Shown here: positions 19,975 through 26,434 of the stretch, one piece after another
Layout of the letters: every line of letters begins with the position of its first letter
Position numbering within the stretch: position 1 is the first letter of the stretch
NCBI RefSeq assembly: GCF_009002475.1
Contig: NZ_AP019860.1
Location: forward strand, 1,426,001 to 1,490,000
Origin: Candidatus Uabimicrobium amorphum
GTDB lineage: Bacteria > Planctomycetota > Uabimicrobiia > Uabimicrobiales > Uabimicrobiaceae
Length of the DNA stretch: 64,000 bases
Reading direction: 5' to 3'
Position numbers and translations under genes: made by a program
The notes under the pieces: generated by a model
Database searches by the model: none
What the model was told of the DNA's origin: nothing
What the model saw: the letters and a program-made list of their open reading frames with translations, nothing else

Positions 19975-20631
19975 ATGGAAAAGTGGGGAGCGGGAATATA
20001 TCTATTGGGGCAGTATCATCGCTACCAAACTGGTTTGTGGTTGCTAAAACATCAAGATGAAGCAGCAATCCTAGAAATGCCACCGTATTTTAAGAGTGAA
20101 GTCCCTCCGTATAAACTTTGTAAAACACTATGCGAAGATTATAATTTAAAGATAAAATACTTTTTATGTTCCCATGCTCACGGAGATCACTTTTGGCAAA
20201 AAACATACGACGAGATCAAGAAAAACTTTCCACAGGCGAAAATTTATTTACAAAACGGTTTTAAAAAACGAATAAAAAATAAGGCGCGCACAAAATTTTT
20301 TGAAGACGAACAACGCCTTTATCTCGCAAACGAACCTCTAATATTGATCCATGCTCCCAAGCACAGTCCCACTGATACAATGGTTGCCTTTCGCGGAACT
20401 ATGTTTACGGGTGACTGGGAACTAAATACAATTCGCAGTGTACATGATGGTAAAAAATACGCCGTCCCTATGGAAACGCGTTTGCAATCCGTGCAAAAGA
20501 TGGAAACATTTGAAGAGCGTTACAATTACAACATCCATCGTGTCTTTTCCGTACACGCAAACGATCGGCGCGAAAATGTAAACTTTACGGAATTAATGGC
20601 TGATACAAAAAACAACAGACAATTGTGGTAG
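19975..20631 (+). CDS. Metallo-beta-lactamase-fold hydrolase
   Basis: This 218-residue protein has the MBL-fold metal-binding set: SHAHGDHFW (HxHxDH, near residue 67), the next His in APKHSPTDTM, the bridging Asp in MFTGDWEL and the last His in VFSVHANDRR. All ligands are kept, so it should bind two metal ions. The group includes hydrolases of thioesters, phosphodiesters and lactones. There is no RNase beta-CASP insert and no lactamase signature, so the substrate is open. TAGGAG precedes the ATG. It is the first of three close genes (8 bases to the TPR gene, then none to the zinc-ribbon gene). Confidence 0.85.
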   Translation: MEKWGAGIYLLGQYHRYQTGLWLLKHQDEAAILEMPPYFKSEVPPYKLCKTLCEDYNLKIKYFLCSHAHGDHFWQKTYDEIKKNFPQAKIYLQNGFKKRIKNKARTKFFEDEQRLYLANEPLILIHAPKHSPTDTMVAFRGTMFTGDWELNTIRSVHDGKKYAVPMETRLQSVQKMETFEERYNYNIHRVFSVHANDRRENVNFTELMADTKNNRQLW

Positions 20632-20639
20632 GAACCAAA

Positions 20640-21668
20640 ATGTTTGGATTTGGTAAACGCAAAAAGAAAAAAGAAGACGAAGTCAAAGCAAATGAAGAGC
20701 TGAATCAAGACATTAACATTGACGATTCAGAAGGTGACCAAGTCGACGAAGTGGATGAGGATGTCAGCGAAGTTGACGATGATGTTAGCGAGGTTGACGA
20801 AGATATTAGCGATGTTGATGAACTCGATGATATAGATGAAATTGACGAACTCGACGATGACATTGACGAAATTGACGACGTTGACGATGATATTGAAGAC
20901 GTGCAAGACGCTAAAAGTGAGAATATAGCTAGCCAAAAGGACTTTGAAGAGGTAAGTTCTCCGACAATAAAACCCGCCAATATTTCTTCTAGCCACAATA
21001 TATCCACAGAAGACATAAAAAGATCGATGGAAGCCAACAATAACGGAATTCGCTGCAAGAAAAATAGAGATTTCGCCAAAGCGTTAGAGATGTACAACGA
21101 AGCCATCATGGTCTATCCCGGTTATGCAATGGCGTATTACAACCGCGCTATATTGTATACCGAGCAACAACAATTCGATAAGGCCATTGAAGATTACAGC
21201 ACCGCGATCAGCATTAACCCAAGAGCACCAGAGTTTTACAATAATCGTGGTAATCTGTTTTTTGAAGCAAAAAAATACGACAAGGCAGAAGAGGATTACA
21301 ACAAGTCACTAGAGCTAGCTCCGAACTACTCTGAAGCTTTTCATAACAGAGGTATGTTGTATTTCTGCCAAAGCAAACTACAAGAAGCTCTACAAAACTT
21401 TACGCGTGCTATAGAACTCAACGCAGATCTTTCGATTAACTACTACAACATTGCATGTATACATTCGCGTTTAGAAGAGCAAGACCAAGCGTTGGTATTT
21501 TTAGAAAAAGCTTTCCGCGAAGGTTTTTTTGATCGCGAAAAACTAAACAGCGATAGCGACTTAGACAACATTCGCAGTCTGCCAGCTTTCCAAGACCTCA
21601 CAGATCGCGGCGGAAGTATGTCTCCCTACACCATGGCGATGAAGAATTTTTCAACGAGGAGAAAGTAA
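20640..21668 (+). CDS. TPR protein with basic N-terminus and acidic repeat tract
   Basis: I start at ATG 20640 (MFGFGKRKKKK), 6 bases after TAGGA. The 342-residue protein opens with a strongly basic patch. It continues with about 55 residues of Asp/Glu/Val/Ile repeats of the form VDEDVSEVDDD, and then has at least four classical TPR units from about residue 125 (KALEMYNEAIMVYPGYAMAYYNRA, KAIEDYSTAISINPRAPEFYNNRG, KAEEDYNKSLELAPNYSEAFHNRG). It is a probable cytoplasmic scaffold. The DNA under the acidic tract is itself repetitive, so length may vary between strains. No catalytic domain is seen. Confidence 0.8.
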   Translation: MFGFGKRKKKKEDEVKANEELNQDINIDDSEGDQVDEVDEDVSEVDDDVSEVDEDISDVDELDDIDEIDELDDDIDEIDDVDDDIEDVQDAKSENIASQKDFEEVSSPTIKPANISSSHNISTEDIKRSMEANNNGIRCKKNRDFAKALEMYNEAIMVYPGYAMAYYNRAILYTEQQQFDKAIEDYSTAISINPRAPEFYNNRGNLFFEAKKYDKAEEDYNKSLELAPNYSEAFHNRGMLYFCQSKLQEALQNFTRAIELNADLSINYYNIACIHSRLEEQDQALVFLEKAFREGFFDREKLNSDSDLDNIRSLPAFQDLTDRGGSMSPYTMAMKNFSTRRK

Positions 21669-22332: not shown

Positions 22333-22551
22333 CTACCCTTTAATCAAATTCACTACCTCATTCTCTTCCGCGTGGCGTCCTAACTTCTTTTTGGAAAAAA
22401 TCAGTTCGCCGTCTTTTACCACCTCAAAAACTCCGCCTCCTGAGGCGATAAGTTCTGCGTCTATCGAAAAATGCTTCTTCAATTCTTCTGCCAAACCGGC
22501 AGCTATGGGATAGTAGTCTCACTTCTGGCAATACTCAATCGACACTTTCAT
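22333..22551 (-). CDS. selW: SelW/Rdx-family selenoprotein with in-frame UGA (Sec)
   Basis: Read from ATG 22551, behind AGGAGAG, the frame gives MKVSIEYCQK, then TGA (22521-22519), then DYYPIAAGLAEELKKHFSID and onward through GGGVFEVVKDGELIFSKKKLG to TAG at 22333. With UGA as selenocysteine this is a 72-residue Rdx/SelW-like thioredoxin-fold protein. The UGA falls exactly on the second position of the CxxC/CxxU redox motif (Cys8, Sec11), as in known SelW proteins. The rest matches the family, including the GGxFEV and IFSKK segments. A hairpin of bacterial SECIS type lies just downstream of UGA. It is the last gene of the M29-thioesterase-UbiA operon, 9 bases after the UbiA stop. It is probably a cytoplasmic redox protein. 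A nonsense mutation is the alternative, but unlikely at this exact codon with the whole downstream frame conserved. Confidence 0.85.
22488..22521 (-). promoter_or_regulatory. Putative bacterial SECIS element of selW
   Basis: In the mRNA, 16 bases after UGA, CUGCC (22502-22498) pairs with GGCAG (22492-22488) around the loop GGUUU. The loop opens with G residues and starts 21 bases after UGA, within the range described for bacterial SECIS hairpins read by SelB. The stem is only 5 bp, so this is a candidate. Confidence 0.6.
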
Positions 22552-22560
22552 TTTTCTCTC

Positions 22561-23454
22561 CTATATAAAATATGCTACTCCAAGCACGACTTGTGCGTAA
22601 ACCATCATCATGTACATGTGTCGCCACGAAGGATGGTTTTCGGTTGTTGTTAGCGAATGTGGATCTTTTAGAATTAAATATACGACATAGCTTCCCCATA
22701 TGCACATCGATACTCCCAGAAAGATCAGTAACAAAGGGTTACCGTGCAAAACTTTCAAATACACCCCTAGGGGAAACAATAGAAAAGGTACGATAAACGA
22801 TGGAGCGATCATCAGAGCGCTCTTTTTTACCCCAAAAGCGATGGGGAGAGTGATACAGTTATTGCGTTTGTCGCCTTCCATATCGGCGTAATCTTTCGTT
22901 GACGTAGCGCCCAATAAGAAAAGACCGAAAATAAGGCCTATGTACCAAGCTTCGGTATACCAAATGGGCAAAAGTACTCCCCAGCCAGCAACTTTCATCA
23001 GTAAGCCTCGTGGAATAACGATGGTAAGGGTTGCCGACCACCAATAGCGTTTGGTACGCAGTGGTGGCACAGAGTAGATGATGGTACAAAAAGCGGCGAT
23101 AAATACCATAATCGCAAATTCATAGCTCAAGGCAAATGCGATCAGTAACGACGCTACATATAACACAACAGAAATTATCCATGCGCTGCGCATGGACACT
23201 TTACCTGAGGGAAGAGGTCGCTGTGGTTTGTTGATGCAATCTATCTCATAATCGTAGATTTGGTTTATGGCATTGCTCGCACCATTTAAAATGGCTCCGG
23301 TAAAGCCACCTAGCAGTACTTTGCACAAAATCCACCACTGTGGATCGTGAAATTCATGATAGCCGACACCCCAAGCGACAAAAGAGCCGCTCATGATCCC
23401 TATGGCGGGTGCTAATAAAGTAAATGGACGTAAGAGTACAATATACGCTTTCAT
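22561..23454 (-). CDS. UbiA-family prenyltransferase
   Basis: This 297-residue integral membrane protein has about eight or nine hydrophobic helices. It has both Asp-rich motifs of the UbiA superfamily: NAINQIYDYEIDCINKPQRP (NxxxDxxxD type) near residue 60 and KDYADMEGDKRN near residue 185. These bind the Mg-diphosphate of the prenyl donor. The second motif with EGDK resembles the chlorophyll synthase/geranylgeranylglyceryl phosphate synthase branch more than menaquinone MenA. The acceptor cannot be deduced. It starts 1 base after the thioesterase stop and is followed 9 bases later by selW. Confidence 0.88.
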   Translation of the reverse strand: MKAYIVLLRPFTLLAPAIGIMSGSFVAWGVGYHEFHDPQWWILCKVLLGGFTGAILNGASNAINQIYDYEIDCINKPQRPLPSGKVSMRSAWIISVVLYVASLLIAFALSYEFAIMVFIAAFCTIIYSVPPLRTKRYWWSATLTIVIPRGLLMKVAGWGVLLPIWYTEAWYIGLIFGLFLLGATSTKDYADMEGDKRNNCITLPIAFGVKKSALMIAPSFIVPFLLFPLGVYLKVLHGNPLLLIFLGVSMCIWGSYVVYLILKDPHSLTTTENHPSWRHMYMMMVYAQVVLGVAYFI

Positions 23455-25087: not shown

Positions 25088-26434
25088 ATGCATATAGGCA
25101 ACTACAACAATCGAGAATTGCTGGAAGTCAACTTACATTATTTGCATTCTCAGGGAAAATTAACAGAAGAAACTGGCTTTTTTTTACGACGAATGTACAA
25201 CTACCCACATAACATATATTCTTTTATAAAAGAAGTGTGGGAAGCACAGGGCTCGAAAGAAATACATACGAATACTCAATATATTGATAATCGCTATACT
25301 CTTGTTTGTAAAACTCCTATAGGTAGTGGTGGAATGGGAGAAGTATACCCATTCTGGGATGCACAAGAACAGAAAGTAGTGGCCTTTAAAATAGCCAAAT
25401 TAGTGTGTAGCGCCAGTGGTGAAAATAGGCGTTTATTACGCGAAGGAGAGGTACTTAAGAGACTTCATGAGGTTCATCCGAATATCGTTAAGTATCAGGA
25501 CCTGCGTATTGAAAAATTTGGCGACCTATTTAGTGAAGACGCGATATGCCTCGTCATGGAATATGTCGAAGGGCGTTCGCTAAAAGAATTTGCACTACGC
25601 AAAGGATTGTATTGGTACGATATGTGCCGTAGGGAAAATAGAAAACTCGATCAACTCTTACAAAGTAATATTGGTTATATTTGTACAATAGCAAAAGCAC
25701 TACAAACTTTACATAAAAAAGGTTTAGTTCACCGCGATGTGAAACCAACAAATATCATCATTAGCGATGATGTCCCCATTCTTATTGATTTTGGCATCGC
25801 ACAACGAATAGAGGCCGAAGGCTATCTTCGCACAATATGTAGTATGGCCTCAAATATCGGAACTCCACCGTTTATGGATCCAGGAACCGCGCTATCGTTT
25901 ATAGATCTTCTACACTTACAAAAAGATATTCAGGACAAGTCTTGGGAGGAGTTTTTGCGAAATGTTAAGAAACCTTTATTGGAATACCCTACAAAAATGA
26001 AACCACTGAAGAAAAAGATAAAACAAATAAAAACCAAATTATTTGTTGATAAGTGGTTGTACAATAAACCTCCAAAAATTGATGAAGTCGCCTGGGAAGA
26101 AGTGGAGCAAATTATTAACGAAATACGTTTTTGCTCTGACCCCAAAGAAGATGTTTATTCATTGGGAGCGACTCTATATTGGTGTTTAACAGGAGAAACT
26201 CTTTTCTCCACACCTGAGCAAGCAAGAATGTATTATCACAACCCTTCCAAAATACATTTGGTAAGGCGTATGAACATTGTTGACTTTGCCCAACCCAAAA
26301 AAATCACCAAGGTGATCAAAAAACTAGAAAAAATAATTCAACATACTCTTAATCCCGACCCCGTAAAGCGTTGGTCGTGTGAAAAATTGATCAAAGCTTT
26401 GGAACCTTTCGCCAATAATTTGTATGCTCGGTGA
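25088..26434 (+). CDS. Hanks-type Ser/Thr protein kinase
   Basis: After about 70 N-terminal residues the kinase domain shows the Gly loop IGSGGMGEVY (79-88), Lys in VAFKIAK (about 101), catalytic loop HRDVKPTN (about 215) and DFG (about 234). The domain has an unusual Lys-rich insertion after GTPPFMDPG (about residues 285-340) before the conserved DVYSLGATLYWCLTGE. All catalytic residues are present, so it should be active. There is no transmembrane segment. It ends 5 bases before the next kinase gene. Start ATG 25088 lacks an obvious ribosome site. Substrates are unknown; the neighbouring kinase-HEAT protein is an obvious candidate partner. Confidence 0.88.
   Translation: MHIGNYNNRELLEVNLHYLHSQGKLTEETGFFLRRMYNYPHNIYSFIKEVWEAQGSKEIHTNTQYIDNRYTLVCKTPIGSGGMGEVYPFWDAQEQKVVAFKIAKLVCSASGENRRLLREGEVLKRLHEVHPNIVKYQDLRIEKFGDLFSEDAICLVMEYVEGRSLKEFALRKGLYWYDMCRRENRKLDQLLQSNIGYICTIAKALQTLHKKGLVHRDVKPTNIIISDDVPILIDFGIAQRIEAEGYLRTICSMASNIGTPPFMDPGTALSFIDLLHLQKDIQDKSWEEFLRNVKKPLLEYPTKMKPLKKKIKQIKTKLFVDKWLYNKPPKIDEVAWEEVEQIINEIRFCSDPKEDVYSLGATLYWCLTGETLFSTPEQARMYYHNPSKIHLVRRMNIVDFAQPKKITKVIKKLEKIIQHTLNPDPVKRWSCEKLIKALEPFANNLYAR

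Follow-up and report, generated by a model that had tools for sequence, protein, structure and literature searches.

Which protein, if any, is encoded on the minus strand between positions 22333 and 22551, where the standard ORF list holds no minus-strand ORF of at least 60 amino acids? The window considered here is the whole stretch of DNA that was analysed, 64,000 nucleotides corresponding to positions 1426001-1490000 of a 9.5 Mb planctomycete genome that forms a single contig. The first-pass annotation of this window had proposed that a selenoprotein of the SelW/Rdx family is hidden there by an in-frame UGA, and re-reading the strand from 22551 to 22333 confirmed the frame, its sole UGA and its TAG, as well as the silence of standard ORF calling. 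Translation from the ATG at 22551 gives MKVSIEYCQK-U-DYYPIAAGLAEELKKHFSIDAELIASGGGVFEVVKDGELIFSKKKLGRHAEENEVVNLIKG and then the TAG (22335-22333), so that the selW-like coding sequence, stop included, spans 22333-22551 and specifies 72 amino acids. The only internal stop is the UGA of codon 11 (22519-22521, minus strand), which is followed by 61 sense codons up to the TAG. This UGA does occupy, as had been claimed, the second redox position of the CxxC/CxxU motif, which reads Cys8-Gln-Lys-Sec11 (C8-Q-K-U11). Ordinary gene callers overlook the gene because what would be its active-site selenocysteine is written as a stop codon.

The membership in the SelW/Rdx family was examined with profiles, with the UGA translated as Cys for these searches. 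Residues 2-71 align with positions 1-73 of the 74 positions of the Pfam Rdx profile PF10262 (E 2.3e-18, 66.6 bits for a cut-off of 22.6). The protein also scores above the cut-offs of NCBIfam NF041051, the model of the SelT/SelW/SelH family (seleno)protein (E 9.2e-27, 93.1 bits, cut-off 88), and of TIGR02174 (E 1.3e-13, 51 bits, cut-off 34.2). With the three profiles all matching, the sequence evidence is that the gene is real and not a chance frame. In an alignment of 25 sequences, the CxxC/CxxU motif follows the first beta strand and both of its columns are invariant when U is read as C. The profile derived from these 25 sequences retrieves the solved SelW-related proteins 2fa8, 3dex, 2oka and 2p0g, together with mouse SelW (2npb). 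The predicted structure (pLDDT 93.5) has a thioredoxin-like fold of the Rdx type, and its best matches in the PDB are SelW-related proteins, most entries having a TM of about 0.9 (0.90 for 2fa8). Alignment, profiles and predicted fold all fit the family assignment.

We then come to the signal that could allow the UGA to be read as selenocysteine. A hairpin of the bacterial SECIS type, CTGCC-GGTTT-GGCAG, is found 16 nt after the UGA (22488-22502, minus strand), with a GU in its apical loop. Its stem corresponds to positions 20-24 and 30-34 counted from the U of the UGA and encloses the 5-nt loop GGTTT, and this location relative to the UGA is the spacing expected of a bacterial SECIS. Taken alone, the hairpin of the window is unremarkable: the stability of its single-sequence fold is ordinary (z 0.06) and about 4% of the synonymous redraws of the window sequence yield a similar one. 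The case for a SECIS therefore rests on the comparison of relatives. In an unselected set of 58 distinct Sec sequences, 255 of the 290 stem cells are paired, to be compared with 212 +/- 4 when the 3' arms are shuffled. Among 31 that we picked from these 58, 95.5% of the cells are paired and 22 two-sided changes are counted, against 4.7 in the shuffles; sliding the stem partner by 1 to 3 columns in this 31-sequence set destroys the pairing signal. An Rfam scan of the window gave no matches.

It could be argued that this hairpin is a mere by-product of the codons of the conserved AA[GS]LA stretch and that there is no SECIS at all, a proposal that fits both the conservation of the protein at this place and the ordinary single-sequence fold. 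However, a stem of 5 or more perfect pairs whose loop contains GU is present in 41 of 59 sequences, while synonymous redraws give 6.6 +/- 2.4, and compensatory changes in the stem are many. Moreover, when the loop codon encodes Ser it is always AGT or AGC, despite TCN making up most of the Ser codons in the pool, and the stem is mostly incomplete in the Cys homologues. An origin of the hairpin in protein conservation alone is thus very improbable. The position of the SECIS-type hairpin is not the same throughout the planctomycetes. In seven sequences (L047, L055, L056, L059, L062, L065 and L067), the stem is 4 nt nearer the UGA, as exemplified by CCAGGC-CGTGG-GCCTGG, and these sequences pair poorly in the majority register. 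The two registers might conceivably form a natural series in which the SECIS moved while the protein was kept, but we regard this as unlikely. The same-family relative (L044, from genome G001) has no hairpin in which 5 or more perfect pairs close a loop containing GU.

The conservation of the UGA itself is extensive. A relative was found in 45 of the 99 genomes of the phylum that were searched, and in all but one of these 45 a copy has exactly one internal stop, which is UGA. Among the extracted relatives, the UGA stands at the CxxU position and most of the few others have Cys, the frames being free of decay. Sixteen loci were found outside the phylum, among Zixiibacteriota, KSB1, Desulfobacterota, Chloroflexota and others; UGA stands in 14 of them and Cys in the remaining two. 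A tblastn search against plasmids gave no matches. The distribution of the UGA-type gene also follows that of the decoding machinery: SelB is over the cut-off in 43 of the 44 genomes with a UGA-type SelW versus 26 of the 55 others (Fisher p 9e-9). The sole UGA-type genome in which no SelB passes the cut-off is G064, perhaps because it is an incomplete draft; in G009, whose only copy is of the CxxC type, no SelB passes it either. A tRNA-Sec of at least 57 bits, a level well above the scores of other tRNA matches, was found in 38 of the 44 UGA-type genomes, and the misses are draft genomes. Sec-type SelW is hence widespread in Planctomycetota. As an aside, genome G067 (L042, L064, L069) carries, besides a UGA-type SelW, two non-UGA Rdx paralogues, one with CxxC and one devoid of the motif.

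This conservation bears directly on the idea that the locus is a pseudogene, left behind when a Cys-type Rdx gene decayed and its TGC or TGT codon became a premature TGA stop. The silence of standard ORF calling and the single base that separates TGA from TGC or TGT are in line with it, but the rest of the frame is intact and a UGA shared by nearly every genome that has a relative effectively refutes it. Together with the covariation of the hairpin and the full Sec machinery of the host, this led us to reject the pseudogene, to which we leave almost no probability.

The selenoprotein reading implied a SelA/SelB/SelC/SelD set in this organism, and a search of the genome did find selA (494 bits), selB (364 bits), selD (394 bits) and a tRNA-Sec (67.5 bits), which ARAGORN calls tRNA-SeC with the anticodon tca. 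The translated frame of SelD (L075 / L023, G000:C1:8531822-8532745, minus strand) has an in-frame UGA at GAG-U-ACK, and three further redox ORFs of the genome, Prx-, Trx- and AhpD-like, have a UGA at the expected site. The planctomycete host is thus endowed with a full selenocysteine machinery and at least five candidate selenoproteins. A decoding of UGA as Trp or Cys, through a change of code or through suppression, would agree with the presence of UGA inside several apparently functional frames of the genome, but it has a negligible chance of being correct and was rejected, since UGA terminates a normal kinase ORF in the window (25088-26434), the internal UGAs followed up in the genome are all at known Sec/Cys redox sites, and both a SECIS-type hairpin and a tRNA-Sec are present.

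The selenoprotein interpretation is therefore supported by the machinery, by the UGA or Cys of the homologues, by the alignment and by the fold, to which the covarying hairpin adds. We are highly confident that 22333-22551 is the gene of a selenoprotein of the SelW/Rdx family that combines a CxxU motif with a thioredoxin-like fold, and whose UGA would be read as Sec by means of SelB and the hairpin. Mechanistically, SelB carrying Sec-tRNA-Sec would recognise the hairpin just 3' of the UGA, and selenocysteine would be inserted there in place of termination. Homology, the conservation of the UGA, the covarying SECIS-like hairpin and the selA, selB, selC and selD genes all point to such an insertion at residue 11. 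The mature protein of 72 residues would probably be a small thiol/selenol oxidoreductase. We infer a redox chemistry in which Sec11 and Cys8 would form a selenenylsulfide that cellular thiols would reduce, and its physiological role probably lies in oxidative stress or in thiol homeostasis.

Concerning its expression, the first-pass annotation had relied on a ribosome binding site and on an operon position after UbiA. Both elements are present: a Shine-Dalgarno-like AGGAGAG (22556-22562, minus strand) overlaps the TAG stop codon of a UbiA-family prenyltransferase gene (22561-23454, minus strand), which is located upstream, 9 nt before the SelW start. The UbiA neighbour, however, is not conserved in relatives; tblastn found neither ubiA nor the thioesterase or M29 peptidase near SelW in about 60 loci, and the operon argument is weak because of this absence of ubiA. 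A scan for promoters and terminators returned nothing above chance that is relevant to the selW-like gene. In this genome, ubiA and the selW-like gene are probably co-transcribed, and a weaker possibility is that this co-transcription ties SelW to isoprenoid/quinone metabolism in the host lineage. The window is rich in kinases, and elsewhere in it (20625-21668, plus strand) we noted a TPR-like protein with a long acidic and repetitive N-terminal stretch (DEVDEDVSEVDDD...).

The planctomycete gene joins the well-known family of bacterial SelW-like selenoproteins. SelW-like proteins were among the known bacterial selenoproteins by 2005, in the study of the Sargasso Sea set (PMC1088965), and in 2006 they were listed in Desulfotalea, Geobacter, Symbiobacterium and others, where it was noted that organisms using Sec have very few Cys homologues of them (PMC1794560). 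The protein shares with them its short Rdx-family sequence, its CxxU motif and a SECIS just 3' of the UGA; the differences are limited to the lineage of the host, Planctomycetota, and to the genes next to it. Their omission from annotation also has precedents, as SelW genes were reported to have been missed entirely in Epsilonproteobacteria (PMC4607533). The SelW of C. jejuni (CJnc60), for which read-through was shown by Ribo-seq and by proteomics/MS (PMC11955535), likewise has about 80 amino acids, was unannotated owing to its UGA, and is related to the model NF041051, whose cut-off is passed here. It belongs to another phylum and has other neighbours, and the read-through experiments concern C. 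jejuni. The Cys-type Rdx structures (2fa8, which is Atu0228, 3dex, 2oka and 2p0g) share its fold and the position of the motif (TM ~0.84-0.90, 29-36% identity) but have Cys where it has Sec, and need no SECIS. Mouse SelW (2npb) shares the fold and the CxxU motif, but it is longer (a 96-residue chain in 2npb), and in eukaryotes the SECIS is located in the 3' UTR. The Sec machinery and selenoproteins of planctomycetes were described in 2016 (PMC4807772), and the Uabimicrobium literature that we searched does not mention selenocysteine or selenium. The selW-like gene, left out by standard annotation, corrects the annotation more than it changes our understanding.

Three other loci of the genome deserve a brief description, each being likely to encode a selenoprotein. 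A peroxiredoxin-like (AhpC-TSA) ORF (L093, G000:C1:3652600-3654200, plus strand) has its UGA at YRGHW-U-PFC and a second UGA close to its end, which is probably the true stop. An AhpD/CMD-like ORF (L095, G000:C1:6779500-6780900, minus strand) has a UGA at NHCHY-U-VQHH. Finally, a thioredoxin-like ORF (L094, G000:C1:5026100-5027600, plus strand) has a UGA at ATT-U-GPC, with a hairpin immediately 3' of it.
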